Virus record (IMG/VR): IMGVR_UViG_3300023257_000007
Coordinates: 248,001-312,000 of that record
Strand: one strand, 5' to 3'
DNA: 64,000 nucleotides
DNA from: a virus
Position numbers and translations under genes: made by a program. The notes below the pieces were generated by a model. That model did not search any database. It had not been told where the DNA came from and saw only the letters and a program-made list of their open reading frames with translations. Below, piece by piece: positions 1 through 64,000 of this stretch (its first letter is position 1; each line of letters starts with the position of its first letter).

Positions 1-305
1 AATTCTTTATTATAATCAGCATATTCTTCTAGGCTTTCAAATACTGTAAAAAATGTATTAGAAGAATAATTAAATGCGATGAGGGTTTTATTATAACCAA
101 TATAATATTCATTGTAACTATAATTGTTAATGCAATGTTCTAATATTTCTTTGTGATGGGCTTCATCTTCATTGGGTTCATCCCAGTATTTATTCAATTG
201 ACTTCTCCAATAATTAATAAGGCTTGTTACTTCTTCCGGAGTTTTGCAGTTAACTAGGACTTTATCTGATTGTATATTTTCTAAATATGTACTAAGGTAT
301 TTCAT
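1..305 (-). CDS. Head-bearing small protein, 3' end outside window
   Basis: Starts at ATG 305 with MKYLSTYLENIQ, a variant of the MKYLKTY head. 101 codons are visible and the frame is still open at the window edge, so it is unknown whether a tail follows. The body (for example EEVTSLINYWRSQLNKYW) is not recognised. It reads away from the next gene across a short gap that holds a promoter-like box. Confidence 0.8.
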   Translation of the reverse strand, partial: MKYLSTYLENIQSDKVLVNCKTPEEVTSLINYWRSQLNKYWDEPNEDEAHHKEILEHCINNYSYNEYYIGYNKTLIAFNYSSNTFFTVFESLEEYADYNKE

Positions 306-310
306 ATGAA

Positions 311-330
311 GATATATATTGAATTTGTTT
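311..330 (-). promoter_or_regulatory. AATATATATC promoter-like box
   Basis: Read on the minus strand, a TTCAATATATATC box ends six bases before ATG 305, with a poly-A stretch upstream. It matches the TTAATATATA box seen before many other first genes of a block. Confidence 0.45.
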
Positions 331-359
331 TTTCAAAATAAATTTTGTATTTTATATTT

Positions 360-641
360 ATGAAATTTTATTATTTAGAAGTAAAAGAAAAGGATTGGAA
401 TGAAGTTATAAACTATATAACTAAAGTTATTCCTATTTGGAATGAAAAGTTTGATATAAGTCTTCCTATTAAACATATTGGATTTTATATAGATCTAAAG
501 AATGAATTTGGTTTAAATAATGATAATTTATTATTGTTTCGTTATCATAAATTAAATTTTAAAACTTGTGATTATATAAAGTGTAAGGATATAGAAGAAT
601 TCTTATTTTCTTATGAATCAAGTAAGATGGGATTATTGTAA
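360..641 (+). CDS. Small tailed protein
   Basis: 94 residues. An in-frame ATG at 345 exists, but MKFYYLEVKEKDW from 360 gives the usual short beta-strand start of these genes. Ends ESSKMGLL. Body unrecognised; the pattern of a strand followed by a helix (KDWNEVINYITKVIPIW) resembles the other small alpha/beta tailed proteins in the window. First of a plus-strand run to 2.4 kb. Confidence 0.75.
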   Translation: MKFYYLEVKEKDWNEVINYITKVIPIWNEKFDISLPIKHIGFYIDLKNEFGLNNDNLLLFRYHKLNFKTCDYIKCKDIEEFLFSYESSKMGLL

Positions 642-662
642 CATTATTAAATAAAACAAAGA

Positions 663-986
663 ATGAACATAGCTATCGAGTTATATACTAAGAAAGAGTT
701 ATTTAAGGCATGGAAAAAGATGTTAGATTTAGGATATAATTTAGATGTTTGGCATAGAATTTACATGGAGAAGGATTATAATTGGATTGGATTTGATTAT
801 ATAAAAAAAAGGGGTGGTCTTTATATTTATTTTGATTTAGATGAATATATAATGACTGGTTGGGATGGTTTATATAATATACACATGATTAAATATATTC
901 CTGATGATATGGATTTTATTATCAATCATATTGATATTGATTCGATTGATTCGTGTATAGAGGGTATTAAATTAGGTTTATTATAG
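663..986 (+). CDS. Small tailed protein, paralog of 2079-2399
   Basis: 107 residues, starts MNIAIELYTKKELFKAW, ends EGIKLGLL with a TAG stop. It aligns along its whole length with the gene at 2079-2399: the IAIE start, helix, DLGY, a W-x-GF strand, RGG-(L/I)-Y, FDLD and GW-x-x-LY positions are shared. The two are diverged tandem duplicates separated by three other genes. Function unknown. Confidence 0.8.
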   Translation: MNIAIELYTKKELFKAWKKMLDLGYNLDVWHRIYMEKDYNWIGFDYIKKRGGLYIYFDLDEYIMTGWDGLYNIHMIKYIPDDMDFIINHIDIDSIDSCIEGIKLGLL

Positions 987-1012
987 ATTTGAAATTATGA
1001 GATTTTATAGGA

Positions 1013-1036
1013 TCTACTAAAATGGGATTAATGTAA
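1013..1036 (+). pseudogene. Orphan tail STKMGLM with no gene body
   Basis: The frame reads S-T-K-M-G-L-M-stop immediately before ATG 1036 (stop and start overlap as TAATG). No open frame of useful length precedes it: the space back to the previous stop is only about 25 bases. The tail of a lost cassette seems to have been kept at the junction. Confidence 0.6.
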
Positions 1037-1335
1037 TGAATGAACTTGTATATATTAGTGTAAATAATAAGGAACAATATGATAGAGTTATACGTATTGC
1101 TGAAAATAATGGTTTTAAAACAAGAGGTAATTCCTCTTCTTTACCTGTTAATATTTATCTTTGTATTAAGGATGCTGTTGAAGGATCTTGGTTAAAGGAT
1201 GTTATTTATTTTAGTAGTAATGATTATGATCTATATAAAACTGTATTACCAGTTAGGATAAAATGTGATTATGAGGATTTTTCAGAAGAATATTTAAAGT
1301 TTATAACAGAATCAGATAAGATGGGATTATTATAA
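1036..1335 (+). CDS. Small tailed protein
   Basis: 99 residues: MNELVYISVNNKEQYDRV..., ends ESDKMGLL. Opens with a beta strand and a helix (KEQYDRVIRIAENNGF), the common layout of the small tailed proteins. Body not recognised. Its start overlaps the stop of the orphan tail before it. Confidence 0.78.
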   Translation: MNELVYISVNNKEQYDRVIRIAENNGFKTRGNSSSLPVNIYLCIKDAVEGSWLKDVIYFSSNDYDLYKTVLPVRIKCDYEDFSEEYLKFITESDKMGLL

Positions 1336-1337
1336 TT

Positions 1338-1749
1338 ATGAATGAATCGAATACAATATTGTGTGCTGCTTTTTGTGGTACTGGAAAAACTTATATTTGC
1401 AATCAGAATAAGAAGGCTATTAAAATTGAATATTGGAAGTATGAAAGAAGGACTAGAAAAAGAATATGTTAGTGATATAAAAAAGCAAATTGGAAAAGTA
1501 GATTATATTTTTTTAAGTACTGACATAGAAGGTTTGAAACTATTAAAAGGTTTTAATATTGTACTTGATTACCCTGAAAATAATTTGAGAAATGAATACC
1601 TTGATAGGTTTATTGATAGAGATAGTCCTTACGATTTTATAGGGACGTTTATGAAACATTGGAATATATGGATAGATGAACTTAAAGATCAAAATTATTG
1701 TAAACATATTATATTGAAAAATGGTGAGTACTTGCAAAATATTCTCTAA
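1338..1749 (+). pseudogene. P-loop nucleotide kinase-like protein, frameshifted
   Basis: Two frames make one protein. From ATG 1338 the frame gives MNESNTILCAAFCGTGKTYI, with a Walker A loop (CGTGKT), and stops at about 1470. From about 1440 another frame continues with VDYIFLSTDIEGLKLL, then LRNEYLDRF and FMKHWNIWIDEL up to 1749. The order P-loop, strand, 'EYLxRF', 'WxxWI' matches a phage family of small adenylate-kinase-like proteins. One indel between 1440 and 1465 splits it. It has neither head nor tail. Confidence 0.6.
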
Positions 1750-2821: not shown

Positions 2822-3322
2822 ATGAAAATAAATATAATGTATGCGGGGATGGCGGATGATATTATGCTTCCAATGTTACAAGTTCCAACTTTCATAATAA
2901 TCCAAGTTTATTTGCTTCTATTTTTATTTGATGGAGCCTTTGCTAGAAATGGTTGGGAAAGTCAAAAAGAAGATATAAGACAAACGTTATTGTCTGGTAA
3001 TAATGAGAATTCATGGCACAGGGAGGTATATTTAAAATATGAATCAGACACTCCAACTTTTTCATTAGAAGAAAAATGTGTTATATTATCTGATATAGAT
3101 AAAGATGAATGTTGGAAATTGACATTTGATTATAATGGAAAGCGCAGAGAACTAATTTATTATCATCATCAAAACTTTTATGATGTGTGGCCTGATAATA
3201 TAAAGGATATTAATCATTTATTTAGTATTGGTGCTACTTTTGAATATTTAACAGAACCTAAATTAAAAGAAATGTTGAAGACAAGATGTACTGGTTATTT
3301 ATATGATCAAGTGACACCATAA
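2822..3322 (+). CDS. Hypothetical protein with one membrane segment
   Basis: 166 residues from ATG 2822 (MKINIMYAGMADD); an earlier in-frame start at 2771 would put the start inside the promoter block. One hydrophobic segment (PTFIIIQVYLLLFLF, residues about 21-35), then a soluble domain containing GWESQKEDIRQTL and YLYDQVTP. No head or tail. Not recognised. Confidence 0.65.
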   Translation: MKINIMYAGMADDIMLPMLQVPTFIIIQVYLLLFLFDGAFARNGWESQKEDIRQTLLSGNNENSWHREVYLKYESDTPTFSLEEKCVILSDIDKDECWKLTFDYNGKRRELIYYHHQNFYDVWPDNIKDINHLFSIGATFEYLTEPKLKEMLKTRCTGYLYDQVTP

Positions 3323-3376: not shown

Positions 3377-3856
3377 TTAATATAATCCCATTTTATTTGC
3401 ATTATAAAGGTCTGGATTTTCTTTCCAAAACCATTCCCAATATTCTTCTAAATTATTATAAGGTAATTGGTTATTATAACAATTTAAATATTCTAATCTT
3501 TTAGATAATTCAGGTAATTCAGTTAATTGGTTACCATCACAATCTAAATATTTTAACTCTTTTGGTAATTCAGGCAATTTAGTTAATTTATTATTATAAC
3601 AATATAATATTTCTAACCCTTTTGGTAGTTCAGGTAATTCAATTAATTTGTTGTTGTCACAATATAACATTTCTAATCCTTTTGGTAATTCAGGTAATTC
3701 AGTTAATTGATTATTATAACACATTAATTTTTCTAACCCTTTAGGTAATTCAGGTAATTCAGTTAAATTTAAATTAACTAAATTTAATATTTTACCATCA
3801 TCACTTAGATGATCTTTTATTAATTGGTTTTCTGAATATGTTTTTAAATATTTCAT
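3377..3856 (-). CDS. LRR protein with head and tail, 5 repeats
   Basis: 159 residues. Head MKYLKTYSENQLIKDHLS, an N-cap (DDGKILNLVNLNL), then five 20-residue repeats of the type LTELPELPKGLExLYCxNNQ, a C-cap (NQLPYNNLEEYWEWFWKENP) and tail NANKMGLY. The LPxLPxxL pattern is that of bacterial LRR effectors such as YopM and IpaH. Each repeat has a Cys after the LY. The repeats and C-cap are nearly identical to the plus-strand gene 20919-21479, which has one more repeat. The role is probably protein binding; the partner is unknown. Confidence 0.85.
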   Translation of the reverse strand: MKYLKTYSENQLIKDHLSDDGKILNLVNLNLTELPELPKGLEKLMCYNNQLTELPELPKGLEMLYCDNNKLIELPELPKGLEILYCYNNKLTKLPELPKELKYLDCDGNQLTELPELSKRLEYLNCYNNQLPYNNLEEYWEWFWKENPDLYNANKMGLY

Positions 3857-3882
3857 CTATTTTATAATTTTATTGACTTACA
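3857..3882 (-). repeat. 26-base leader repeated at 4262-4287
   Basis: The bases between the stop of one gene and the ATG of the next (reading TAAGTCAATAAAATTATAAA then ATAG) are identical at 3857-3882 and 4262-4287. The repeat includes the stop codon of each upstream gene, so it is another junction-level duplication. Confidence 0.7.
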
Positions 3883-4261
3883 TAAGTCCTAATTTACCTG
3901 ATTCAAATACATATGGGTTATTATGAAAGAATATTTTCATAATAAATAATATTAGTTCATAATCTTTTATTATTTGGTGTCCATCATTTTTATTTGAAGA
4001 TTCTTTTATCCAATTTGGATCTGATACAACTGCAACTTGCTGTTCAACTTTTTGTAATATTATTTGAAATAGATTTCCTTCTCGTTTTAACACAATAGTT
4101 GTGTATACTCCGTTATAATCTATTTCAAGGAATCCATTTCTAATATAAATTTTAAATTTGGTATCTTTAAACATATCTTTTATTGTATCAACAAAGAAAT
4201 CTTGATTGTTATCATTAACTGAAATCTCATTTATCATTTGATATGTCTTTAAATGTTTCAT
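3878..4261 (-). CDS. Head-and-tail small protein
   Basis: 127 residues. Head MKHLKTYQMINEISVND, sharing MINEISV with the heads of LRR genes 15784 and 20919 although the body is not LRR. Tail ESGKLGLM. The body has alternating strands (KFKIYIRNGFLEIDY, TTIVLKREGNLFQIIL) and a helix near the end. Not recognised. Confidence 0.78.
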   Translation of the reverse strand: MKHLKTYQMINEISVNDNNQDFFVDTIKDMFKDTKFKIYIRNGFLEIDYNGVYTTIVLKREGNLFQIILQKVEQQVAVVSDPNWIKESSNKNDGHQIIKDYELILFIMKIFFHNNPYVFESGKLGLM

Positions 4262-4287
4262 CTATTTTATAATTTTATTGACTTACA
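4262..4287 (-). repeat. Second copy of the 26-base leader
   Basis: Identical to 3857-3882, placed between the stop of 4283-4651 and the start of 3878-4261. Confidence 0.7.
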
Positions 4288-4651
4288 AGACACCAAGATT
4301 TTTTGTCCCATTATACATATTTATCATATTTTGTAATTCATTCATAAATTCATCTTTAGTTATTAATATATCTGAGTGTTTATAATAACCGCAAGGACCA
4401 TAAATACGATTTAATTTATAATGAATTGTTCTACTTTCATGTTGTACACAGCAACTATACACCATTTTTCTTTTATCTTCCTCTTTTTCAAGTATATCAC
4501 AACATAATTCTATTTTTGTTCTATGTACATCAAATTTAAAATCATTTATAAGTTTATCATATATTTCAATTGCTTCTTTTGCGTTATTAAATTCAACTGA
4601 TATAAACTTATCTTCATCTATATTTTCATTATATGTTTTAAGGTATTTCAT
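4283..4651 (-). CDS. Head-and-tail small protein
   Basis: 122 residues. Head MKYLKTYNENIDEDK, tail NGTKNLGVL. The body holds a strand-helix start (FISVEFNNAKEAIEIYDKL), several Cys (CC at about 50 and 67) and a CGYYKHSD loop. Its start overlaps the stop of 4651-5121 (TAATG). Not recognised. Confidence 0.78.
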   Translation of the reverse strand: MKYLKTYNENIDEDKFISVEFNNAKEAIEIYDKLINDFKFDVHRTKIELCCDILEKEEDKRKMVYSCCVQHESRTIHYKLNRIYGPCGYYKHSDILITKDEFMNELQNMINMYNGTKNLGVL

Positions 4652-5121
4652 TATAATAATCCTAGTTTATTTGCTTCTAAATCTGCTTTAAGGTCTTCAC
4701 TTTTAAGGTATTCTAATATTTGTGAAAGTTTTTTATAATTTTTTAAATTTTTACTAACCCTTGTTAAAAGACTAAATTTATCTCTATTATTATCTTCAAT
4801 AAGATAAGCAATAACATCAACAATTTTACTAGTATTAATATCAACTGAATCTAATACTTCTAGATGTGTATAATTACCTAATTTAATATTTTCTGGTATT
4901 TTTATAAATACTTGTTCATATTTATCACCATGTAAAATATATTGATATTTATTATATATTTTAGCACATTCCTTTTTAATATCTGATATTAGTTTATTAA
5001 AATTATCAAAAATTGTTTTATCATTTATTTGTTTATAAAGCAATTCTTTTTGTTTATAAAATGATTCTTGTTGTTTATAGTTTTCTTCTATGTTTTCGTT
5101 ATATGTTTCACTTATGATCAT
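4651..5121 (-). CDS. Head-and-tail helical protein
   Basis: 156 residues. Divergent head MIISETYNENIEENY, then a charged coiled-coil-like stretch (QQESFYKQKELLYKQ) and tail EANKLGLL. The layout (coiled coil, I-x-x-(K/E)-(I/L)-P-x-x-I strand, helical end) resembles the four genes at 25219-26985. First gene of a minus-strand block; a promoter-like block lies just upstream. Confidence 0.76.
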   Translation of the reverse strand: MIISETYNENIEENYKQQESFYKQKELLYKQINDKTIFDNFNKLISDIKKECAKIYNKYQYILHGDKYEQVFIKIPENIKLGNYTHLEVLDSVDINTSKIVDVIAYLIEDNNRDKFSLLTRVSKNLKNYKKLSQILEYLKSEDLKADLEANKLGLL

Positions 5122-5241: not shown

Positions 5242-5484
5242 TCAAAAGAAATGTATTTCTACATATTCATCTATGATGATTGGATGATATCTTTTAATAT
5301 CTCTCACTATATCATCTACAATTTCTTTTAGTTTTATTATATCTGTATTTGGTGGAACAAATAAGTAAATTTCTGAATCATCTTTACACAAACCCTTTTT
5401 ATTCAAATAATATGGTGTATTTTTAAATATATCATCAATAATATATTTAAATTTAAATGATTCATACTTTTTTATATATTTCAT
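5242..5484 (-). CDS. Head-bearing small protein without tail
   Basis: 80 residues. Head MKYIKKYESFKFKY, body with IYLFVPPNTD and IKLKEIVDDIV, ends VEIHFF. It lacks the usual tail and is short, so it may be truncated. Function unknown. Confidence 0.7.
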   Translation of the reverse strand: MKYIKKYESFKFKYIIDDIFKNTPYYLNKKGLCKDDSEIYLFVPPNTDIIKLKEIVDDIVRDIKRYHPIIIDEYVEIHFF

Positions 5485-5494: not shown

Positions 5495-5905
5495 TTATAA
5501 AAGACCCATTTGACCTGTTATTAATAATCTTTTTACTTTTTTTAATGGTACTAAATAATTTTCCCAGTTTTCTGGACTATCATCTATACCATCTGTTATA
5601 TCTTTATCTTCCCAAACAGATATTGGTATTTTATTATCCTTTGTAAAGATAGTGTTTGCACCATTTTGATCAAATCGTATAATCTCTTCATCAAATAAAT
5701 TAAAAATTGTTCGACTTGTTTTTATATTATCATCAATATATGAATTATAGTCAGTAATTAAATGTTTTGCATATTGATTAAACCATTTACAACCATTCTT
5801 TATAGCTAAATTAGTATAAGTAAAATATTCATCAATATTACTTACTTCAAACACAAATAATACATTTGGTATTGTACTTTCATTATATGTTTTTAAATAT
5901 TTCAT
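5495..5905 (-). CDS. Head-and-tail small protein
   Basis: 136 residues. Head MKYLKTYNESTIPN, tail ITGQMGLL. The body starts with LFVFEVSNIDEYFTYTNLAI and NGCKWF, the 'strand, helix, G-x-x-W' pattern shared by many small tailed proteins here. Not recognised. Confidence 0.78.
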   Translation of the reverse strand: MKYLKTYNESTIPNVLFVFEVSNIDEYFTYTNLAIKNGCKWFNQYAKHLITDYNSYIDDNIKTSRTIFNLFDEEIIRFDQNGANTIFTKDNKIPISVWEDKDITDGIDDSPENWENYLVPLKKVKRLLITGQMGLL

Positions 5906-6085: not shown

Positions 6086-6511
6086 TTATAATAGTCCTAA
6101 TTTAGTAGATTCAAATTTTGATTCTATATTTTCACTATGAATATATTCTATTATTTTTTCTTCAAATTCCGTAGAGCAACTCTCAATATAATAATTAGTG
6201 TCATTCACAGATTGAAGAAATATTCTATAAGAAGTCGAAATTTCTTCATCATACTTTATGATATATAATGATAAATCATCATCTGGATCTACAATTGTTC
6301 TTCTATCTATATTAGTAGGTTTATCTATAAAATCTGAACCAGATACATTTACTTTAACATCTGTTCTACTATTCAAATATTCATTAGGTTTACCATATTT
6401 ATTTATTAAATACTCACATCTATATAATAATTCTTCATCATCTTTATAAATATGATGAACAGTACCATTATCATATATTAATGATTCATTATAAGTTTTT
6501 AAATATTTCAC
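6086..6511 (-). CDS. Head-and-tail small protein, GTG start
   Basis: 141 residues. The head codons (V/M)KYLKTYNES are intact but the start codon is GTG at 6511, the only such case among the clear heads. Tail ESTKLGLL. The body has LLYRCEYLINKYGKPN, SGSDFIDKPTNI and strands near the C-terminus; it resembles 19979-20440 (QDLLDQHGKLDL, GSEIVDKETNI) and more distantly 21511-22000. Confidence 0.76.
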   Translation of the reverse strand: MKYLKTYNESLIYDNGTVHHIYKDDEELLYRCEYLINKYGKPNEYLNSRTDVKVNVSGSDFIDKPTNIDRRTIVDPDDDLSLYIIKYDEEISTSYRIFLQSVNDTNYYIESCSTEFEEKIIEYIHSENIESKFESTKLGLL

Positions 6512-6630: not shown

Positions 6631-6954
6631 ATGATTAAAATTAATATTACGGGAATTAATTGTAATGAATTTGAAAAGTTACAAAAAATATTCTTTGATC
6701 AAAATATACCTTGGTATTATAGTGGTTATAAATTACAATCATCCGATGATTGTAATTATTATCATAACATTTATATTGTTTCAAAAATCGTTGTCATGAG
6801 AAATGATAACCATGAAAAAGAAGAATATTATATGACCTTTAAAAAAGATAATATAATCTCAAAAGACCAAGATTTAATTGAATATAAATATGATGAAATG
6901 GATGAGAATACATTAAAAAGTTATTTTAACGGTTTACAACTAGGATTATTATGA
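6631..6954 (+). CDS. Small tailed protein, paralog of 6951-7269
   Basis: 107 residues. Starts MIKINITGINCNEFEKLQK, ends NGLQLGLL. The order strand, helix, 'FFDQNIPWYY' is shared with the next gene (IHMIDQNIPWID). Function unknown. The stop overlaps the next ATG. Confidence 0.78.
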   Translation: MIKINITGINCNEFEKLQKIFFDQNIPWYYSGYKLQSSDDCNYYHNIYIVSKIVVMRNDNHEKEEYYMTFKKDNIISKDQDLIEYKYDEMDENTLKSYFNGLQLGLL

Positions 6955-7731: not shown

Positions 7732-8622
7732 ATGGAAGAAAAAACAAAAATATTATTAAACGGCAAAGAAAATAAGAGCGAACTTATTAACTTACTTACA
7801 AAAGTTGATGTTTCTTGCTCTACTCGTGAACTAAATTCTGAGTTGATAGTTAAAATCAAACATTTTAACAAATGTATCGAAGAAAATATCGAATTCAGAA
7901 ATAAATTCAATGTTAATGAAAGATTTGAGTTCTTAGAAGATCTTACCAACATGATTATTGATGGTAAAGGTAACTCATTGATAGTTATAGGTGAAGGTGG
8001 ACTTGGTAAAACATTTACTGTATTAAGCACTTTATCAAAAAGAACAAAAACTGGATTTCTAAACCTTTTCAAGAAAAAAGAAGATGTTCACATAGTTAAA
8101 GGTTTCTCAACAGCTAGAGGTCTATATGATACATTATATGATAATAGAGATAAATTAATTTTATTTGACGACTGTGATTCAATCTTAGAAGATAAAACAG
8201 CTATTAATATTTTAAAATCAGCTTTAGATTCTTATGATACTAGAATCGTTACATGGTCTAAATTTTTGAAAAATAAAAACAATTATCCACAATCATTCGA
8301 ATTTACAGGTAGAATAATCTTTATCTCAAATAAAAAGAAAACTCAAATACCACAACCAATCTTAACAAGAGGTTATGTAGTTGATTTAGAAATGAGCAAT
8401 GGTGAGAAAATCGACAGAATGGCTCACATCATGCCAACACTTATCGAAGATAAAGGTAAAGGTAGATGGAGTTTAAATGATGGTTTTACGGCTTTAGAAT
8501 TCATTAGAATAAATATAGATGATGTTAAAGAACTAAGTATTAGAACATTAGTAGATGTTTTAAGAATAATGAAATCAAGAAAAAATTGGGAAAAATTAGC
8601 TTTATATACAATAACAGAATAA
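7732..8622 (+). CDS. AAA+-type ATPase
   Basis: 296 residues. Walker A GEGGLGKT at about residues 87-94, Walker B LILFDDCD at about 143-150, a sensor-like IIFISN at about 199 and an arginine in ILTRGY at about 215. These give a compact P-loop ATPase like those beside phage replication or DNA-handling genes. The N-terminal 80 residues are unassigned. No head or tail. The stop overlaps the next start (TAATG). The exact role (helicase loading, DNA packaging or other) cannot be told. Confidence 0.8.
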   Translation: MEEKTKILLNGKENKSELINLLTKVDVSCSTRELNSELIVKIKHFNKCIEENIEFRNKFNVNERFEFLEDLTNMIIDGKGNSLIVIGEGGLGKTFTVLSTLSKRTKTGFLNLFKKKEDVHIVKGFSTARGLYDTLYDNRDKLILFDDCDSILEDKTAINILKSALDSYDTRIVTWSKFLKNKNNYPQSFEFTGRIIFISNKKKTQIPQPILTRGYVVDLEMSNGEKIDRMAHIMPTLIEDKGKGRWSLNDGFTALEFIRINIDDVKELSIRTLVDVLRIMKSRKNWEKLALYTITE

Positions 8623-8912
8623 TGACAACATATATAACAGATATACCATCAGAATATATATTATATCTTGATAAAATAATCAGTGAATATTATAATATGA
8701 AATCTATAATTAGACCTAATAAAAGAATCATAAAATATGATTATTATTTTATAAGTATCAATAAATATAATGATAATTGTCTGTGTTATTCAGGTATGTG
8801 TTATTTACATGAACTCATAGGACCAACCAGTGAAACTATTAATTATGTTGATTGGTTAGAAAAACATAATTTAACATACAAATTAGAATCAACCAAATTA
8901 GGATTATTATGA
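8622..8912 (+). CDS. Small tailed protein, paralog of 8909-9205
   Basis: 96 residues from ATG 8622 (MTTYITDIPSEYILYLDKII); an upstream in-frame ATG at 8586 lies inside the ATPase. Ends ESTKLGLL. Nearly the same start, DKIISEYYNM helix and DWLxKxNL end as the next gene, so a recent tandem duplication. Confidence 0.8.
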   Translation: MTTYITDIPSEYILYLDKIISEYYNMKSIIRPNKRIIKYDYYFISINKYNDNCLCYSGMCYLHELIGPTSETINYVDWLEKHNLTYKLESTKLGLL

Positions 8913-9205
8913 CATTATATATAACAGACATACCTCAAAAAGAAATATTATATCTTGATAAAATAATCAGTGAATATTATAATATGGAAACTATAACTCG
9001 TAGTATTAATAGAATTAATTTCACATTATATGATTATATTTATATAAGTGTTGGTAAAAATTGTACTGAGGGATTATATTATTCAGATATGAATTATTTA
9101 AAACATATTAAAAAACAGAACCATAAAACTATCAATTATATTGATTGGTTGAAAAAGAATAATTTATTCTATAAATTAGAATCAGCCAAATTAGGATTAT
9201 TATGA
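8909..9205 (+). CDS. Small tailed protein, paralog of 8622-8912
   Basis: 98 residues, MTLYITDIPQKEILYLDKII, ends ESAKLGLL. Overlaps the previous gene by ATGA. The IDWLKKNNLFYKLES end also resembles 47991-48314 (FKNWLKEKELEYKLES) far to the right. Function unknown. Confidence 0.8.
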   Translation: MTLYITDIPQKEILYLDKIISEYYNMETITRSINRINFTLYDYIYISVGKNCTEGLYYSDMNYLKHIKKQNHKTINYIDWLKKNNLFYKLESAKLGLL

Positions 9206-9520: not shown

Positions 9521-10348
9521 ATGATAACACGAATTGCACCATCACCAACAGGATATTTTCATTTAGGAACTCTAAGAACTGCACTACTAAATTATTTAAT
9601 GGCAAGAGCAAACAATGGAACATTCATCCTTAGAATTGATGATACCGACCAAGAAAGAAATCAAAACACATTCACAAACTATATCTATAAACAAATGAAT
9701 AAATTTGGCCTTGATTATGATATAACTTTTAAACAATCAGAAAGATTAGACAGATATAAAGAAGTAGCATATAAAATAGGAACAAAAACTGAAAATGGTT
9801 ATGAATTAAATATGGGAGAATATTCAATGGTTATACTCAGAAATAACGGTTTTCCTACCTATAATTTCTGTTCAATTCTTGATGATTATGATTATGATGT
9901 TACAGATATAGTCAGAGGTGTTGACCATATCGCAAACGAATCTAAACAAAAAATTATATGGGATTTGATTTGTTATGTAGAAAGTGATAAACCTTTTCCT
10001 AATATAATTCATGCTGGTTTACTTTTTGAAGGAAATAAAAAGCTTTCTAAAAGAAGTGGTAATGGTCTAACAGAAGATTATTTAGATTTTAGTACTAATG
10101 CAATATTAAATTGGTTATTAAAATTTGGTTGGTCACATCCAGACCCAAACTTCGATAAGAAGTATCCTACATTAAATATGAATCAAATGATTAATTTATT
10201 CAATGATGGTAAAATCTCCGATAGAAATTGTAAAATAGATAAGGCTAAATTAAACTTTTTAAATAAAAAATGGAGATACTTAGAAAGAAAAGCTAATGAA
10301 AACTCTAAACTTTCTAAGTTTAATGAATTTAATAATGGTCTATTGTAA
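9521..10348 (+). CDS. gltX: Short glutamyl-tRNA synthetase (catalytic and stem-contact parts only)
   Basis: 275 residues. Class I signature PSPTGYFHLGTLRTALLN with the HIGH-type HLGT at residues 14-17, FILRIDDTDQER at about 35-46, DIVRGVDH at about 130 and a KMSKS-type KLSKRSG at about 173. After it come LLKFGWSHPD and SDRNCKIDKAKLNFLNKK, typical of GluRS rather than GluQ-RS. Bacterial GluRS is about 470 residues; the anticodon-binding C-terminal part is missing. The protein ends FNNGLL, reminiscent of the tail. It may charge a restricted tRNA set or have another adenylate-transfer role (inference). Confidence 0.82.
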   Translation: MITRIAPSPTGYFHLGTLRTALLNYLMARANNGTFILRIDDTDQERNQNTFTNYIYKQMNKFGLDYDITFKQSERLDRYKEVAYKIGTKTENGYELNMGEYSMVILRNNGFPTYNFCSILDDYDYDVTDIVRGVDHIANESKQKIIWDLICYVESDKPFPNIIHAGLLFEGNKKLSKRSGNGLTEDYLDFSTNAILNWLLKFGWSHPDPNFDKKYPTLNMNQMINLFNDGKISDRNCKIDKAKLNFLNKKWRYLERKANENSKLSKFNEFNNGLL

Positions 10349-11160: not shown

Positions 11161-12327
11161 ATGTTAAAATCATATAAATATAGATTATATCCAAATCAAG
11201 ATCAAAAAGAATTAATGTCAAAAATTTTTGGTCAAGTAAGATTTGTATATAACCTTGGTTTAGAAACAAAAACATTAGCATATGTTGGAAATAAAACCAA
11301 TTATACTTGTTTTGATTTAAATAAACAAATAACTGAACTTAAAAAAACAGATGCCCCTTGGCTTAAAGAAAGTCCATCACAGGCATTACAAATGTCTATG
11401 AGAAACCTGGATAATGCTTATACAAATTTTTTTAAAGGTGCCGGGTTTCCTAAATTCAAGTCAAAATATACAAAACAATCATTCCAATTACCACAAGGTG
11501 TATTTTTAAGTGAAAATAATAAACAAATTTATATACCTAAACTAAAACTGGTTGATATTGATTTACACAGAGAATTTAAAGGTGACATAAAGACAATAAC
11601 AGTAAGCAAAACAACAACAAACAAATATTATATCAGCATTTTAGTTGATAATAAAAAAGAATTACCTGAAAAGAAACCAATTAAATTAGAAACAACAGTT
11701 GGAATTGATTTGGGTATTAAAGATTTTGCTATCACTTCAGATGGAAAGAAATTCAAGAACCACGATTTCTTTAAATCTTCAATGAAAAAGTTAAGGGTGG
11801 AACAGCGATCCCTTAGTAGAAAACAAAAAGGATCAAACCATTACAACAAACAAAAATTAAAGGTTGCCTTGTTACACGAACACACTAGAAACCAACGAAA
11901 AGATTATTTACATAAAATAAGTAAATATTTGGTAGATAATTATGACACAATTTGTATCGAAAATCTTGGTGTAAGTAATATGGTTAAAAACCATAACCTT
12001 GCTCGTGCTATAAGTGATATGGGTTGGGGTGAATTTAAATCAATGGTTGATTATAAATGTGAATGGTATGGTAAAAATTTAAGTATAATTGGTAGATTTG
12101 ATCCATCAAGCAAAACATGCTCTAATTGTGGTTCAATCAATAAAGAATTGACTTTGAAAGATAGGGAATGGATTTGCTCTAAATGTGGAATAGAACATGA
12201 CAGGGATATAAATGCTGCAATAAATATAAGAAATTTTGGGTTGAGGAACCAACCCAGCGTCACCCAAAGTGAATGGTTACATTGTGCTTGTGGCGTAGAA
12301 ACACATCAGTCTTTAGCTGATGTGTAG
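11161..12327 (+). CDS. tnpB: TnpB, RNA-guided endonuclease of IS200/IS605 elements
   Basis: 388 residues. N-terminal helix-turn-helix/WED-type region (SYKYRLYPNQDQKELMSKIF). RuvC-like nuclease with catalytic Asp in VGIDLGIKDF (about 183), Glu in CIENLGVSNM (about 265) and Asp in HDRDINAA (about 345), and a four-Cys zinc ribbon (CSNCG...CSKCG). All expected catalytic residues are present. The last codons (THQSLADV) form the right-end hairpin; the guide RNA would come from this 3' end and the flank. Confidence 0.9.
   Translation: MLKSYKYRLYPNQDQKELMSKIFGQVRFVYNLGLETKTLAYVGNKTNYTCFDLNKQITELKKTDAPWLKESPSQALQMSMRNLDNAYTNFFKGAGFPKFKSKYTKQSFQLPQGVFLSENNKQIYIPKLKLVDIDLHREFKGDIKTITVSKTTTNKYYISILVDNKKELPEKKPIKLETTVGIDLGIKDFAITSDGKKFKNHDFFKSSMKKLRVEQRSLSRKQKGSNHYNKQKLKVALLHEHTRNQRKDYLHKISKYLVDNYDTICIENLGVSNMVKNHNLARAISDMGWGEFKSMVDYKCEWYGKNLSIIGRFDPSSKTCSNCGSINKELTLKDREWICSKCGIEHDRDINAAINIRNFGLRNQPSVTQSEWLHCACGVETHQSLADV
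12301..12325 (+). repeat. Right-end hairpin of the tnpB element
   Basis: Perfect 9-bp stem ACACATCAG / CTGATGTGT with loop TCTTTAG, overlapping the tnpB stop. The loop equals that of the left hairpin, but the stem sequence differs. Confidence 0.75.
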
Positions 12328-12408
12328 TTCATAGTCTAGAATGGTCAAAAATATTTTAATATTTTGAAAAATTTCCTTATATTAATATTAATTAACTTAA
12401 AACTAAAA

Positions 12409-12729
12409 ATGAAAAGTTTAGTAATAAATATAAAAAATGAAAAACATTGGATAAAAATCCAAAATGAATTAAAAAAACATTTTAAATGGGATGTATCATA
12501 CCGTATTATGATTAAAAAAGATAATTACGAATATTTAAATGAATATAATATTGGTATATCATTAACCACATTTAGTACAATAAAAGAAAAATATAAAATA
12601 CATCTTTGGATAAAAGATGAATATCTTCACACTATTGATGGTGATGATACTAATATTAATGAACACTATTGTAAAGATATAGATGAATTGTTAGAAATGT
12701 ACACCTCACATAAATTAGGATTAATATAA
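12409..12729 (+). CDS. Small tailed protein, family with 13070 and 13366
   Basis: 106 residues from ATG 12409 (MKSLVINIKNEKHWIKIQNE); the longer frame from 12364 would start inside the element flank. Ends SHKLGLI. Shares 'LVINIxNxKHW', 'KIHLWIKD' and 'YCKDxDELLEMY' with 13070-13369, and less with 13366-13650. Function unknown. Confidence 0.78.
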   Translation: MKSLVINIKNEKHWIKIQNELKKHFKWDVSYRIMIKKDNYEYLNEYNIGISLTTFSTIKEKYKIHLWIKDEYLHTIDGDDTNINEHYCKDIDELLEMYTSHKLGLI

Positions 12730-17621: not shown

Positions 17622-17681
17622 GCCTGAATTACCTGAAGGATTAGAAAGATTATATTGTAATAATTACTATTATAATGATAT

Positions 17682-53079: not shown

Positions 53080-53412
53080 TTATATTAATCCTAATTTATA
53101 ACCATCAAAGAAATATTGTAAATCATGTTCTTCAATAAATTCATCAAACCACCTCAATATATGTCCTGGATGATTAATCCGAGTTAAATCTATAGCATTT
53201 GTTCTACCAGAAGATTCAAAACAAGAAACTGTATGTTTTTCATCAACGAACAAAACAAGTGGAAAGTACTTTCTACTTAACAATGGTTTAACAAATAATG
53301 ATCGCCACAAATGTGTATGTTCATATTTCATATGATCAAACCATTTAAGAATATTTAAAAGTTCTTCATTATTTTCAATGACTACATTTAATATATGTCT
53401 TGATTCTTTCAT
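53080..53412 (-). CDS. Small tailed protein
   Basis: 110 residues: MKESRHILNVVIENNEELLN, FPLVLFVDEKHTVSCFESSG, WFDEFIEEHDLQYFF, ends DGYKLGLI. Overlaps the Pth2 gene by one base. Not recognised. Confidence 0.76.
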   Translation of the reverse strand: MKESRHILNVVIENNEELLNILKWFDHMKYEHTHLWRSLFVKPLLSRKYFPLVLFVDEKHTVSCFESSGRTNAIDLTRINHPGHILRWFDEFIEEHDLQYFFDGYKLGLI

Positions 53413-53821: not shown

Positions 53822-54174
53822 TTATAATACTCCTAATTTAATCGAATCAATTATTTCTCTTATTAATTTACATGCTTCAATAAGACCTGCCTCTAGTGCT
53901 TCTTCGTAGGTTTTATATTCACCTACTACATCTGTTGGATAACTAGAACCATTATCACTTTGTTCACCTATTTTATAACCATATTTAGTACAATTAAATT
54001 GAGCATTAACATCTAATTTGTATTTTTTTCTTTAAATATATGATATTTTTCCATGATTCTTTCAACAATTAATTCTCTTAACTCATAATAACTAATTTGT
54101 AATTTTTTGTCTTCAATTGTGAGTAAATCTTCCCATGTTGTTGCTTCTCTTAAGGCTTTTTTCATATTTTCCAT
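53822..54174 (-). pseudogene. Tailed protein, frameshifted in a run of seven A
   Basis: From ATG 54174: MENMKKALREATTWEDLLTI, IVERIMEKYHIFKEK, then a stop at 54013. At the run 54023-54029 (T on plus strand) the other frame continues KYKLDVNAQFNCTKYGYKIG, YEEALEAGLIEACKLI, tail DSIKLGVL, stop 53822. Joined it gives about 116 residues resembling a known type of small phage protein ending YEEALEAGLxEA. One indel is the only defect. Confidence 0.66.
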
Positions 54175-57211: not shown

Positions 57212-58408
57212 TTAATTTGAACCAATAGTTATTAATTCTGGATGAACAGCACACCCTCTATCCCATTTAAATTCTGGGACTACTTTTTTTAATATATTAT
57301 ATGATGCGTTTAAATCAGCATTTATTAATATGTTTTCTTTACTTTTAAACATACCCCTTGAAACCCTTTTACCACAATATTCTTTATGTTTTTTTAATTC
57401 TTCACCATCAATAAAAGAACATTTACTTGTGAAACTTTCTTCATTTAATTTAACATTCAAACCTTCTTTTAATGCTTTATATTCAATCATTTGAATTAAT
57501 TTATAAAAAGGTATTTGAACAAAATTTTGATTATTCTTCTTACCCATATTTACATTTTGTTTCCAACTTTTATTATAACCAATAATTATTGTATTTAAAT
57601 CATTTTTTAAACAAAAATCAACCAAATATTTAGATGCATTATGTAAGTAATTATTTATTTTATTATTTCTTTTTTCAGTTAATAAATATAACCTTTTACT
57701 TATAAAAGTTTTCTTTGGTAATTTTGATTGTAATTTAGACAACTTTTTATTATAATATTGATTAATTGATTTTAATGGTCTACCGTTAATGATTATAGGT
57801 TTTACAACCTTTTCATTTGAAGTTATAGCCATTAAATTATTTACACCTAAATCAACACTACAATATTTACTATTGTCTAACTTTAAAGGTTTTTCATCAT
57901 ATTTATATACTATATTTATTTTATATTTTTTTGTTTTAAGTGGTTTTACCTGAACCTCAATTATTTTTTTACTTTTATTTTGAAATGGTAATTTAATACC
58001 TGTTTTATATAATTCTATATAACCTTCCTTTTCAAGATTTTTAGTTTTTACAGCATTATCCACCAAAATGGCTGTAAATTTACTATTTTTAGGTAAATAT
58101 TTAGGTAAATTTGGTTTACCAGTAAATCTATTTGGATTCTTTTTCCATTCTTTCATAGCGTTAAAAAAACTTTTCCAATTTGCATTAAGTATTCTTAGTG
58201 TTGGTCTAGCAATTCTAGATAATAAATCTTTATATTCTACGTGATCTTTCATAATGGTATACATATCATATACTGTAATATAATTACCATGATTAATAAA
58301 TTCCTGTCTGATAATGTAGTTAGCTTTATTGTAAAGATTTTTGGTTTTAACACAAATATCGTTTAAATTATTGTTATTTTTAATTATATGTGATTCAATT
58401 AAATACAA
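57212..58408 (-). CDS. tnpB: TnpB-family protein with rearranged RuvC site
   Basis: 398 residues. CSVDLGVNNLMAI holds the first Asp; INADLNASYNILKK the last. Where ordinary TnpB has I-E-x-L, this has IIIGYNKSWKQNVNMGKKNN, QIPFYKLIQMIEYKAL, then LNEESFTSKCSFIDGEEL, the type in which the catalytic Glu sits in the later 'E-(S/E)-x-TS' segment. Only two Cys remain of the zinc ribbon. No TnpA nearby; a small hairpin AACAGT-AA-ACTGTT lies downstream at 57180-57193. Confidence 0.8.
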   Translation of the reverse strand: MYLIESHIIKNNNNLNDICVKTKNLYNKANYIIRQEFINHGNYITVYDMYTIMKDHVEYKDLLSRIARPTLRILNANWKSFFNAMKEWKKNPNRFTGKPNLPKYLPKNSKFTAILVDNAVKTKNLEKEGYIELYKTGIKLPFQNKSKKIIEVQVKPLKTKKYKINIVYKYDEKPLKLDNSKYCSVDLGVNNLMAITSNEKVVKPIIINGRPLKSINQYYNKKLSKLQSKLPKKTFISKRLYLLTEKRNNKINNYLHNASKYLVDFCLKNDLNTIIIGYNKSWKQNVNMGKKNNQNFVQIPFYKLIQMIEYKALKEGLNVKLNEESFTSKCSFIDGEELKKHKEYCGKRVSRGMFKSKENILINADLNASYNILKKVVPEFKWDRGCAVHPELITIGSN

Positions 58409-61551: not shown

Positions 61552-61752
61552 TTATATTTTGTCATAAATTATTATATCTACACTATTAACATAACTACTT
61601 TCTTTCTTTGAAGCAAACACTTTAATGTCTATCAATCTTCTTTCTTTACACCATATATCTAACCATTCATTGACTTGATTTTTTATATCCCATCTTCCAA
61701 TAGATAGTAAAGTGTCTATTCTTTTAGTTTCTTCTATACTATTTAAACTCAT
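61552..61752 (-). CDS. Small protein, family of three
   Basis: 66 residues: MSLNSIEETKRIDTLLSIGR, LIDIKVFASKKESSY, ends VDIIIYDKI. Same plan as the next two: LNxxEET start, N-W/E-W helix, I-DIKI strand, I-I-I-YD end. ATGA overlaps link the three. Confidence 0.72.
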   Translation of the reverse strand: MSLNSIEETKRIDTLLSIGRWDIKNQVNEWLDIWCKERRLIDIKVFASKKESSYVNSVDIIIYDKI

Positions 61753-61943
61753 ATTATATCATATATTATTAGTATATCTTTATCCCATTCACTACCTTTA
61801 GATAATGTAATTTTTATATCAATAATTTTATATTTTTCTTTATTCTCATTGATCCACTCATTAATTCTTGTTTGAACTTGAGTTTGTCTAATATCATATA
61901 AAAACTTAACCTGTAATGTTTCTTCTGTTTTATTTAAACTCAT
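61749..61943 (-). CDS. Small protein, family of three
   Basis: 64 residues: MSLNKTEETLQVKFLYDIRQ, INEWINENKEKYKIIDIKIT, ends DILIIYDII. Confidence 0.74.
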   Translation of the reverse strand: MSLNKTEETLQVKFLYDIRQTQVQTRINEWINENKEKYKIIDIKITLSKGSEWDKDILIIYDII

Positions 61944-62143
61944 ATTATATCATATATTATTAGTATATCTTTTCTAAACTCATATTCTTCATCAGAAGAC
62001 GATGCAATTATATTTATATCTATAATTTTATAATTAGATTTATTTTTCTCAATCCAATTGTTTATTTTCTTTGATACCTTTTTTTGTTTAATATCATATA
62101 AATAATGGACTCTCTTTGTTTCGTCTATTTTATTTAGGTTCAT
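61940..62143 (-). CDS. Small protein, family of three
   Basis: 67 residues: MNLNKIDETKRVHYLYDIKQ, INNWIEKNKSNYKIIDINII, ends DILIIYDII. The next upstream sequence is a 5'-truncated fourth copy. Confidence 0.74.
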   Translation of the reverse strand: MNLNKIDETKRVHYLYDIKQKKVSKKINNWIEKNKSNYKIIDINIIASSSDEEYEFRKDILIIYDII

Positions 62144-62700: not shown

Positions 62701-62871
62701 TTATAAGTTCTTTATGCGATTTAATTTCAAAATAATCATCGAGAAATTTAATCAATTCTTTATATTATATTTTTCATCACCACTACTACTATATACTGTG
62801 AAAGATTTAACCGTAGATAAATTAAGTCTTTTGTTCTTTACTTTTATCCAAAGATCTTGTTTATTATTCAT
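62669..62871 (-). pseudogene. Paralog of 62864-63118, frameshifted
   Basis: From ATG 62871: MNNKQDLWIKVKNKRLNLST, SFTVYSSSGDEKYNIKN then stop. A second frame continues KELIKFLDDYFEIKSHKELI into the coaC start, matching KKFVDFLNKYFDVRTVEEAI of the upstream neighbour. Confidence 0.6.
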
Positions 62872-63118
62872 ATTCTTCTATTGCCTCCTCAACTGTTCTT
62901 ACATCAAAATATTTATTTAGGAAATCAACGAATTTCTTTCTATCATCTTCATTTCCAAACCAACAATCATGACATTCTTTTTCATAATCATAGAGTTCAA
63001 TACAAAATGGCCCACTACCATATTTTTTAAAGTATCTAATATTCTTTAAATTTATAGTATGCCCATTTTCCCCCTTCTCATTTAATTTAATCCAATAATC
63101 TTGTTCATTTAACGACAT
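62864..63118 (-). CDS. Small protein
   Basis: 84 residues: MSLNEQDYWIKLNEKGENGH, IRYFKKYGSGPFCIELYDYE, CHDCWFGNEDDRKKFVDFLN, ends EEAIEEYE. Shares the MSLN start with the 61-62 kb family and a plan with the frameshifted gene before CoaC. Confidence 0.72.
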   Translation of the reverse strand: MSLNEQDYWIKLNEKGENGHTINLKNIRYFKKYGSGPFCIELYDYEKECHDCWFGNEDDRKKFVDFLNKYFDVRTVEEAIEEYE

Positions 63119-63121
63119 ATC

Positions 63122-63367
63122 TTACATTTTAGGGTAAATAAATTCTTTTCTAACTTTAGTCTCTATAGTTACATAATTATCAGACAATTCAACAATTCTA
63201 CCATCCATTCCATCTGAAAGTTGATTAAATTTAACATCATCACCTTTTCTCATACATTTTCTATATTTTCGAGCAATTCTCTCTTTTTTAACTGATTTTA
63301 TAATTCTATAAAATATATAACCTATAATACAAATTATACCTATTGCAAATAATATTTTTATTGTCAT
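63122..63367 (-). CDS. Single-pass membrane protein
   Basis: 81 residues. A membrane helix at the start (ILFAIGIICIIGYIFYRI), a basic stretch (KSVKKERIARKYRKCMRKGD), then DDVKFNQLSDGMDGRIVELS, which looks like an SH3-like strand pair. ATGA overlap with the next gene. Confidence 0.7.
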   Translation of the reverse strand: MTIKILFAIGIICIIGYIFYRIIKSVKKERIARKYRKCMRKGDDVKFNQLSDGMDGRIVELSDNYVTIETKVRKEFIYPKM

Positions 63368-63522
63368 AATAATCCTAAATCTTTTCCATTAAGATAATCA
63401 GCTAATCTTTCTTTTAATATATCGGCCAATTCATCTTCTGTTAATATTTCTCTTAATTTACTCATGATAATATCGTAATTTAATGGTTCATCAATACTAC
63501 AAAAATCTTCATCATTACTCAT
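63364..63522 (-). CDS. Small acidic tailed protein
   Basis: 52 residues from ATG 63522: MSNDEDFCSIDEPLNYDIIM, helix LTEDELADILKERLADYL, ends NGKDLGLL. First gene of the long minus-strand block. Confidence 0.65.
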   Translation of the reverse strand: MSNDEDFCSIDEPLNYDIIMSKLREILTEDELADILKERLADYLNGKDLGLL

Positions 63523-63603
63523 TTATTCATTTATTTTTTAATCAACTGTAATATACAAAAAAATTTTAAATAAAAAAACGTGTTATAAAAATTAAGAAGT
63601 TTA

Positions 63604-63616
63604 TTTTAATATATAT
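63604..63616 (+). promoter_or_regulatory. TTTTAATATATAT box
   Basis: TTTTAATATATAT about 22 bases before ATG 63639; opens a plus-strand block at the window edge. Confidence 0.48.
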
Positions 63617-63638
63617 TTCAAAAGATCTTAATAGTTTA

Positions 63639-63674
63639 ATGAAAAATTACGAACAATTTATTAAAGAAATATAA
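63639..63674 (+). pseudogene. Orphan T4-like head peptide
   Basis: MKNYEQFIKEI followed by TAA. It is the closest match in the window to the T4 internal-protein start (MKTYQEFI plus A-E), with no body behind it; the next gene begins four bases later with its own head. Confidence 0.6.
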
Positions 63675-63678
63675 AATA

Positions 63679-64000
63679 ATGAAACATTTAAAAACATATG
63701 AAAATATAAAAGATTTTGACAAAAATAAAGAAGATCTAATAAAAATGACAGTTAAATATCGAAATGAAATTGCTGATAAAATTTATAGTCTTGAAAAATA
63801 TACCAAATCTAGAATAATAGAAATACCATTTAATTCTCATCCTAAATATGATTTAATAAGAATTGAATGGTGTGATGTTGAAAAGATGACAAGTTTTGAT
63901 ATTGATATTGATATTTGTGCTGTTGGTGAAGGTTTAAACCACCTTGTTTTTTGGTTAAACCAAGGAAAAATTACTAAATCTCGTAATTTTAATAAGAAAG
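63679..64000 (+). CDS. Head-bearing protein, 3' end outside window
   Basis: 107 codons visible. Head MKHLKTYENIKDFDKNKED, IADKIYSLEKYTKSRIIEIP, IRIEWCDVEK. The helix then IEIP core resembles the 25219-26985 family. Open at the window edge. Confidence 0.76.
   Translation, partial: MKHLKTYENIKDFDKNKEDLIKMTVKYRNEIADKIYSLEKYTKSRIIEIPFNSHPKYDLIRIEWCDVEKMTSFDIDIDICAVGEGLNHLVFWLNQGKITKSRNFNKK

Follow-up and report, generated by a model that had tools for sequence, protein, structure and literature searches.

Many proteins encoded in a 64,000-base stretch of viral DNA (the window, positions 248001-312000 within the 348,222-base virus record IMGVR_UViG_3300023257_000007, here G000) begin like MKYLKTYNE or end like KMGLL or KLGLL, on otherwise unrelated bodies. 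The question raised by this locus is whether these shared ends, here called heads and tails, are real, and what kind of signal they might be. A sequence-only reading of the window had put their numbers at about 40 and about 65 and had taken them for separate signals of a system not described before. Both motifs are real and lie far above chance. On balance, sequence comparison leads us to favor two labels, in which the head would be a T4-type capsid-targeting sequence (CTS) and the tail a second, C-terminal label acting in the infected cell.

Abundance and conservation of the two motifs

The strict tail pattern [KRQ][MLF]GL[LIVMYF]-stop occurs 50 times in the six frames of the window, compared with an average of 0.29 and at most 3 in 100 first-order Markov simulations of the same stretch. 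The strict head pattern, MK[YHFIKM][LI][KNE][TSRK][YF][NSEQMK] following any ATG, GTG or TTG, occurs 23 times, against a mean of 0.12 and a maximum of 1 in 60 simulations, so neither motif is random for this base composition. A broad head pattern was uninformative (58 observed vs. 32 simulated). Among 138 non-overlapping open reading frames (ORFs) of at least 50 residues in the window, 21 have heads, 55 have tails and 19 have both, or 20 with the doubtful ORF 17682-18161; three more fit a shorter head-like pattern, 17682-18161 and 54013-54174 being doubtful. The overlap filter behind this list dropped real short genes, such as 24050-24334. The earlier estimate of tails was therefore near, while that of heads was too high unless relics and loose variants are included.

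The proposed search of the rest of the genome gave 84 matches to a tail DNA pattern in the 348-kb record vs. 3 for the reversed pattern, and 71 vs. 3 for a head pattern allowing up to two mismatches. With a loose tail pattern, 107 of the 551 ORFs of the record have tails, 57 have heads and 31 have both, a count that misses four head proteins whose tails escaped the pattern. Tails are concentrated at 213-291 kb (85, with 8 at 331-340 kb and 14 elsewhere), while heads are spread more widely (26, 6 and 25, respectively). Each motif occurs alone, as expected of separate signals, but they are not independent. Counting CTS-like starts as heads, 24 ORFs inside 213-291 kb have both, 4 a head only, 61 a tail only and 72 neither (odds ratio 7.1); outside this region the numbers are 10, 42, 12 and 294 (odds ratio 5.8), and the overall odds ratio is 3.7.

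A slightly wider pattern gives 113 tail proteins, which form 76 groups after the ends are stripped, these being single-linkage sequence clusters and not proven separate folds. Leucine-rich repeat (LRR) bodies, named in the earlier reading, were confirmed (PF12799, 3.5e-36; predicted structure with a mean predicted local distance difference test, pLDDT, of 93.5). Ankyrin repeats, also named there, were found neither in the 138 ORFs with a simple pattern nor in ten tail proteins searched with Pfam.

The suggestion that selection acts on the peptides, and not only on copied DNA, was borne out by comparing synonymous and nonsynonymous change (pS/pN). The values are 0.59/0.27 in the last five tail codons, 0.52/0.53 in the five before and 0.55/0.64 in the ten before those (-20 to -11); they are 0.57/0.21 in head codons 2-7, with later codons approaching random (0.55/0.69). 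Part of the low pN at tail positions -5 to -1 and in head codons 2-7 follows from how the proteins were picked, namely by patterns at those very positions. Positions outside the selecting pattern are still conserved, with E at -8 in 43 of 76 cluster representatives (background 7.7%) and A, G or S at -7 in 71 of 76 (background 13.4%). Synonymous variety at K-5, L-4, G-3 and L-2 equals the prediction from genome codon use and is lower at L-1 (0.31 vs. 0.54); head codon T6 is ACA in 34 of 39 cases, more uniform than genome usage. A distant sister phage, G005 (166,601 bases), shares 18 reciprocal best pairs among 249 ORFs at a median identity of 35%. Four of these 18 pairs have a pattern tail, which in each case both proteins carry; an LRR pair is 74% identical and the other three 30-32%. 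One further pair, at 35% identity, ends in ELGLL and DLGLL, outside the pattern. The claim of amino-acid constraint holds because synonymous sites are saturated while the residues recur, and because sister pairs retain their tails.

The head and the capsid-targeting sequences of T4

By its sequence, the source of the window is a Bacteroidota-type, T4-like huge phage, of which G000 is a 348-kb fragment. Its large terminase (PF03237, 2.4e-10) shares 51% identity with the terminase of the 735-kb huge phage LR756501, 33% with that of Tenacibaculum phage PTm1 and 30% with that of phage PAU. The host is probably a member of Bacteroidota, given this kinship and the Bacteroidota-type Por_Secre_tail, a type IX secretion C-terminal sorting domain, that ends a 1611-residue phage protein with MAM and GEVED domains located 8 kb beyond the window (record positions 320410-325245, L010:8410-13245). 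Bacteroidetes are also the predicted hosts of the five genomes of more than 634 kb (PMC7162821). A second record, G001 (IMGVR_UViG_3300022868_000009), has a terminase 100% identical to that of G000 and shares the order and spacing of tail sites; G004 is the same phage as well. G001 extends further left than G000 and encodes a gp23-type capsid protein (PF07068, 6.4e-27), a gp20-type portal (PF07230, 4.7e-67) and a protease-scaffold protein 64% identical over residues 3-557 to its LR756501 counterpart, which supplies the gp21-type prohead protease. A gp23-type capsid protein, a gp20-type portal and a T4-type terminase, the marks of a T4-like phage, are thus present across G001 and G000. In G001 the protease-scaffold, capsid and portal genes adjoin head-bearing genes.

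Has a label of the head type been seen before? In T4, the first 10 residues of T4 internal protein (IP) III suffice for packaging and are then removed; positions 4 and 7 of the CTS target, positions 8 and 10 control cutting, and the CTS has been suggested to let T4-like phages package various proteins (PMC9026906). The heads match this idea of one N-terminal label on diverse bodies, so the view that no such system had been described does not stand for them. T4 IPII and IPIII begin MKTYQEFIAE (NC_000866), and near-T4 forms in the window phage include MKTYENFIEK, MKTKYDEFIKE and MNKLYKYSEFLNE, the abundant form being MKYLKTYNE. Like the T4 CTS, the head is a short peptide borne by unrelated small bodies in a phage with a gp21-type prohead protease; the two spaced aromatics and hydrophobic-x-E site of the T4 peptide are complete in some heads and partial in most of the MKYLKTYNE form. 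Heads occur genome-wide, at the very N-terminus, and codons 8 onward are near random. The motif [YF]..[FY][ILVM].E, starting in residues 1-14, is found 22 times vs. 2.3 expected among 519 proteins, and 13 times vs. 1.2 among 236 proteins of sister G005; most MKYLKTYNE heads hold only part of this pattern. In the predicted LRR structure, residues 1-6 fall below pLDDT 50, a disorder-like low confidence.

A counterpart of the head is visible in the prohead core. The G001 protease-scaffold contains 13 YSEYIAEN-like units, 11 of them spaced exactly 14 residues apart in tandem; the protease-scaffold fusion lies at L040:5467-7902, and the 14-residue tandem units number 11 there, 11 in G002 and 12 in LR756501. 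Five related huge phages have 12-14 CTS-like scaffold units, LR756500 has 2, and the protease or protease-scaffold protein of Lak-A1, PTm1, pT24, PAU, MA9V-2 and T4 holds 0-1. A prohead core built from repeats may be common among Mahaphage relatives. T4 differs in having three IPs, where the 348-kb record has 57 narrow-pattern heads and 23 other CTS-like starts (some by chance); in having no such units in gp21, the sole T4 protein examined, against 13 here; and in that a C-terminal motif is also present on many head bearers here. Near their start, the capsid proteins of four phages have a common hydrophobic-N-E-N site, like the YNE-N of heads, and PAU has three proteins annotated as internal capsid protein, two of which start head-like (MKSLTNLYENKLNEAS and MKTISKLYEAKLNEAS).

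Related huge phages were also searched, and head-like starts recur in some of them. With partial coverage for heads in G002, LR756501, LR756500, PTm1 and PAU (all fully covered for the tail pattern), N-terminal [YF]..[FY][ILVM].E units number 4 vs. 0.7 expected in G002 and 8 vs. 1.2 in two stretches of LR756501, and 0 each in the stretches of PTm1, PAU and LR756500 scanned. An LRR protein in another viral contig (L061:388-1068 of 3300030294_000062) starts MKYIKQFDSYKT and ends ISSTKKFNL, possibly carrying a variant head and tail. For detecting heads, a matrix derived from the scaffold repeats proved too narrow for the MKYLKTYNE form and was dropped.

When would head proteins be made? A late promoter-like motif, WAATATATA, lies 29-32 nucleotides upstream of the capsid, portal and three other large genes, five of the nine proven or presumed virion genes checked. 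It also lies 14-15 nucleotides before many head genes (e.g. window 15409 and 32990), with a second mode near 30; a promoter at 14-15 nucleotides would give nearly leaderless mRNAs. The count covers the full 75 nucleotides before the start. Among genes with their own upstream gap, the motif precedes 25 of 46 head genes (antisense control 7), 7 of 34 tail-only genes (7) and 45 of 199 others (16). At the level of operons it is present in 33/60 with heads, 5/40 tail-only and 45/207 without head or tail, and inside the tail-rich cluster in 12/20, 3/35 and 3/36 (others), respectively. Expression of heads with the late capsid genes is thus indicated by the motif alone (33/60 vs. 45/207), and, if the contrast holds, tail-only proteins would not be made with the capsid. 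Enriched k-mers before tail-only genes were mostly the tail of the previous gene.

The head is best read as a T4-type CTS that copies a scaffold unit. In this mechanism the head would mimic one YSEYIAEN-like unit and thereby bring its protein into the prohead core. Cutting by the prohead protease, after a hydrophobic-x-E site that lies within the head or closely follows it, would then release the protein for later injection along with the DNA. Packaging, cleavage and injection are what we infer from the likeness. On this reading, heads are a known kind of label, here at large scale, with a visible scaffold counterpart and in a new clade.

One could instead suppose that heads mark some other N-terminal function, such as translation from a near-leaderless late promoter. 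The frequent position of the late motif 14-15 nucleotides before head starts and the narrow choice of the T6 codon are in line with this, but head codons 2-7 are synonymously saturated overall while their residues recur, the head motif recurs as scaffold repeats, and this promoter motif also precedes 45 of the 207 operons that lack both ends, which together make the idea improbable. Still more remote is the notion that heads and tails alike are copied DNA, from recombination or gene junctions, with no peptide function. Tails and following heads often abut as TAATG, the T6 codon is more uniform than the genome predicts and relics of both motifs exist; the saturation of synonymous change (pS 0.59 in tails and 0.57 in heads overall vs. 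0.55 for random codons) nevertheless rules out DNA copying as the cause, and we give this explanation almost no weight.

The tail and its candidate functions

The tail is a ten-residue C-terminal motif, consisting of a hydrophobic pair, E, A/G/S, x, K, L/M, G, L and L. Among the 76 representatives, position -1 is L in 52, I in 13, F in 5 and M in 4; -2 is L in 65, I in 6 and V in 5; -3 is G in 66 and N in 9; -4 is L in 38 and M in 33; -5 is K in 52, N in 8, R in 6 and Q in 5; -7 is A in 31, G in 21 and S in 19; -8 is D, N or Q in 24 where it is not the E given above; and -9 and -10 are commonly hydrophobic. The eight-residue form is C-terminal 88 times and internal 7 times, one internal copy (record position 332614) looking like two fused tail proteins. 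In two structure predictions, of an LRR protein and a small alpha/beta protein, the final helix stops two residues short of the Gly. Either Gly or Asn at this position, -3, would suit a helix C-cap.

Besides G000, 15 further records were searched, and the tail pattern exceeds control in just three, two from this phage and one from its sister: 53 vs. 4 in G001, 37 vs. 1 in G004 and 23 vs. 3 in G005. It is at or near control in G002, LR756501, LR756500, PTm1 and PAU, absent from the 47-kb G003, and at or near control in LR745206, LR756502, LR756504, pT24, Lak-A1 and MA9V-2, where the largest excess is 2 (6 vs. 4, 5 vs. 3, 3 vs. 1). Mahaphage-type phages such as LR756501 resemble the window phage in terminase, protease-scaffold, gp23, gp20 and S77 relatives, and the T4-like Bacteroidota phages PTm1, pT24 and PAU were likewise compared, but these phages differ from it in the tail. 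A stricter pattern matched only G001, G004 and G005 in IMG/VR. In GTDB genomes a strict tail pattern matched seven places; in the three of these seven for which the motif-ending ORF was read, the matches look like ordinary bacterial proteins. PHROG returned no match for ten tail proteins, and Pfam, given ten, returned one above cut-off only for the LRR protein. With the small alpha/beta model as query, no fold match reached E 0.001, and PHROG and Pfam scans of large unknown proteins found little. PADLOC, run on ten proteins, gave one weak match, to protein 7732-8622, which has no tail. Nothing like this C-terminal label was found described in the open-licence papers searched, so for the tails the claim of novelty may be right. 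Judged from these comparisons, the tail is a real, lineage-restricted C-terminal label, kept as a peptide and without a described equivalent found.

The label reading rests on the peptide being kept despite saturated synonymous change, on its C-terminal position, on its persistence at about 30% body identity and on its restricted phage range. The tail would be a C-terminal helix that is capped by Gly or Asn and closed off by two aliphatic residues, shared by head proteins and a large set of proteins encoded by genes without the late motif. Its most probable role is that of an address or stability tag inside the infected cell, either docking the proteins to one common partner or setting their lifetime; all of its action is what we infer from the motif. 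A more specific version, which we rate as less likely than not, makes it a phage-wide address peptide on about 100 fast-diverging small proteins, some delivered by the virion via the head and others newly made; all of them would be handled by one partner, which could be a dedicated protease or a hub of host or phage origin. Encapsulin cargo-loading peptides resemble the tail in general form, being also short C-terminal peptides on diverse cargo.

A degron, in which a Clp- or FtsH-type protease reads the nonpolar end and keeps early and injected proteins short-lived, is a possible but rather doubtful alternative. The motif is overwhelmingly C-terminal and its last residues are nonpolar, as in SsrA-like and other nonpolar degradation tags; the phage also has genes for ClpS (PF02617, 5.7e-18) and for a ClpB/ClpA-type unfoldase, to which the sister unfoldase is 43% identical. 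The Clp genes lose force as specific support because they are present in relatives without tails: ClpS is found in LR756504, LR756502 and LR745206 and the unfoldase in LR756501, all four with the tail pattern at or near control, so the machinery is not restricted to tail-bearing phages, a restriction that would have been helpful for a degron without strictly defining one. Moreover, the tail is genetically encoded on 113 proteins, its ten-residue motif is longer and more specific (E-8, A/G/S-7, K-5) than a plain nonpolar end, and one protein keeps the internal copy at 332614. The tail might also be no signal at all: an ancient family of small proteins, duplicated many times, could have kept its final helix and later become joined to LRR proteins. 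An alignment of 18 showed that many tail-only proteins share a beta-alpha start and a similar size, the predicted structure ends in the tail helix at high confidence, and the residue at -3 fits the needs of a C-cap; yet the same end is found on LRR proteins and on 76 clusters without detectable body similarity, and the bodies have diverged almost to random (at codons -20 to -11 pN is 0.64), whereas the unselected positions -8 and -7 are conserved. We regard this as unlikely. We see even less to recommend the idea that the tail is another capsid-targeting propeptide, here C-terminal, which the prohead protease would remove, after the C-terminal gp21 processing reported for T4 Alt (PMC9026906). 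Heads and tails do co-occur, and E at -8 followed by A/G/S resembles a gp21 site, which at first made the idea attractive; it was rejected on P3 and P2, since only 12 of the 43 representatives with E-8 have L/I/V/M at P3 and 7 have A/N/S/T at P2, where the scaffold has Y-I-A-E and the capsid M-N-E. The late motif is present in just 5/40 tail-only operons here, though in 3/5 in the sister, and relatives with the same capsid machinery show no tails. Alongside docking to one partner, the degron and the shared structural end may both be kept as candidate readings of the tail.

Several observations weigh against reading the two ends as a CTS and a cellular label, in addition to the partly built-in pN. 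Despite their scaffold repeats, LR745206, LR756502 and LR756504 have only 1, 2 and 2 head-like starts per 50 kb, while MA9V-2 has two head-like N-termini yet lacks the repeats. The third PAU internal capsid protein, gp70, does not start head-like. Hydrophobic-x-E occurs in residues 3-18 of 47 of 57 heads, but also of 178 of 462 other proteins, and the scaffold-unit matrix ranks most MKYLKTYNE heads low, with scores of at least 5 in 15 of 433 N-termini vs. 27 of 2165 internal windows. The Pfam S77 match of the G001 protease-scaffold is below cut-off (21.9 vs. 27 bits), that of the PTm1 relative being above it. Queries drawn from Pfam, from one PHROG family and from PTm1 proteins found no T4-type protease or capsid gene in G000; we read this as truncation, because the record is a fragment and G001, reaching further left, has them. 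In the sister, late-motif operons number 14/24 for heads, 3/5 for tail-only and 19/92 for others, and although these numbers are small, the timing contrast between heads and tail-only genes is not reproduced there because three of the five tail-only operons have the motif. Finally, no partner for the tail turned up.

Arrangement of labeled genes and what the labels would mean

Genes with both ends lie in several runs. On the minus strand they are 2394-2747 (MKYLNTYNEN ... GNKLGLL), the LRR gene 3377-3856 (MKYLKTYSEN ... NANKMGLY), 3878-4261 (MKHLKTYQMINE ... SGKLGLM), 5495-5905 (ending TGQMGLL) and 6086-6511 (GTG start, ending STKLGLL). Among them are 4283-4651, with a head and the variant tail TKNLGVL; 4651-5121, a tail gene whose start, MIISETYNEN, is by eye a degenerate head; and the head-only gene 5242-5484 (MKYIKKYESF), all minus. 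On the plus strand, 15409-15783 (MKYLNRYNES ... GNKMGLI) is followed by the LRR gene 15784-16230 (MKYLKTYNRMINE ... NAKKMGLY) and by 16230-16835 (ending ARKMGLV), all with both ends, and by the tail gene 17682-18161 (ADQMGLI), which has the doubtful head-like start. Further plus-strand genes with head and tail are 19979-20440 (MMYLKTYENF ... ANKMGLY), the LRR genes 20440-20919, 20919-21479, 28687-28986 and 28986-29405, then 32990-33364 (MKYIKSYNEN ... ANQLGLL), 33364-33822 (MKYLETYMHK ... AEKMGIL), the LRR gene 33819-34538, whose predicted structure has residues 1-6 below pLDDT 50 and a helix at 228-235 before the terminal MGLY, and 36558-36938 (MKFLKTYETY ... SEKLGVL); 26985-27329 (plus) has a head and the variant tail ALKLNIL. 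Heads or head-like starts without a tail are MKKINTYSEYILNE at 40996-41730 (minus), a head-only gene close to the scaffold unit YSEYIAEN; MKTKYDEFIKE, near T4 MKTYQEFIAE, at 45434-46024 (minus); and, by eye, MIKKYNDFIQPINES on a 461-residue protein at 36989-38374 (plus).

Tail-only genes on the plus strand are 345-641 (SSKMGLL), 663-986 (GIKLGLL), 1036-1335 (SDKMGLL), 1780-2082 (CLKMGLL), 2058-2399 (SIKMGLL), 6631-6954 (GLQLGLL), 8586-8912 (STKLGLL), 8909-9205 (SAKLGLL), 12364-12729 (SHKLGLI), 12731-13069 (GNKMGLL), 13070-13369 (predicted as a small alpha/beta fold, with LGLI following its last helix, 84-95), 13366-13650 (ANKLGLI), 25180-25656 (AKRMGLL), 25666-26013 (AKKMGLM; its sister counterpart is 32% identical and keeps the tail), 26013-26507 (AKRMGLL) and 26509-26985 (SGKMGLL). 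Two more plus-strand tail genes are 21530-22000 (ANKFGLL), with an MMYLKTYENF head in another frame at 21511, and 27872-28252 (AKKMGLL), which starts MKHLYEWNVF. On the minus strand the tail-only genes are 19624-19953 (AYKLGLL), 23289-23684 (AKKMNLF), 24050-24334 (ASKLGLL, outside the 138-ORF list), 24698-24979 (ASKLGLL), 30607-30930 (SIKLNLI), 30988-31212 (SKKFGLL), 31683-31973 (variant AKKLQLL), 31970-32266 (ATKMNLL), 32263-32586 (AQKLGLL), 32580-32921 (variant ALKMKLW), 35229-35678 (AKKLGVL), 35675-36058 (AKKLGLL), 36055-36477 (CKKLGLL), 41734-42000 (SIKLGLL), 47991-48314 (SLKMNIL) and 53080-53412 (GYKLGLI); the minus-strand tail gene 21995-22402 (GKNLGIL) starts MVKLQTYKLFLES.

Tails are also found as relics. 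Those without a gene are STKMGLM at 1001-1036 (plus) and EANKLGLL at 2892-2942 (minus), with further relics at 30058-30153 (plus, GGKLGLL) and 42898-43041 (minus, the LRR tail NANKMGLY). The same LRR tail, NANKMGLY, lies in an open stretch with no listed gene at 17516-17809 (minus).

Other genes of the window include a TnpB (OrfB_IS605, Cas12f1-like) at 11161-12327, 100% identical to the copy in sister G005 (L075:5429-6595) vs. the 35% median of the pairs, probably by very recent transfer, and a second TnpB at 57212-58408. A 275-residue class I tRNA synthetase (E/Q) catalytic domain (PF00749, 8.5e-47) at 9521-10348 is shorter than the 314 positions of the profile. The protein at 29421-29837, with the proline-rich end RPPPPILNN, sits among head and tail genes and has neither motif. 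At 61552-62143 are three tandem paralogues of 64-67 residues that start MSLN or MNLN, a small family distinct from the tail proteins.

The tail would be a shared C-terminal label on about 100 otherwise unrelated proteins, an organization that we did not find described in the open-licence literature. If the address reading is true, the two labels would sort putative takeover proteins by delivery route (head) and by site of action or lifetime (tail). If heads are CTSs, the scaffold repeats would directly explain how the label is read, the head copying the scaffold's own unit, and a plain sequence pattern would predict which orphan proteins of huge phages are packaged and injected. A 2026 review holds that small uncharacterized jumbo-phage genes may hide a rich anti-defense arsenal (PMC13282480), and the labels would offer a way into it.

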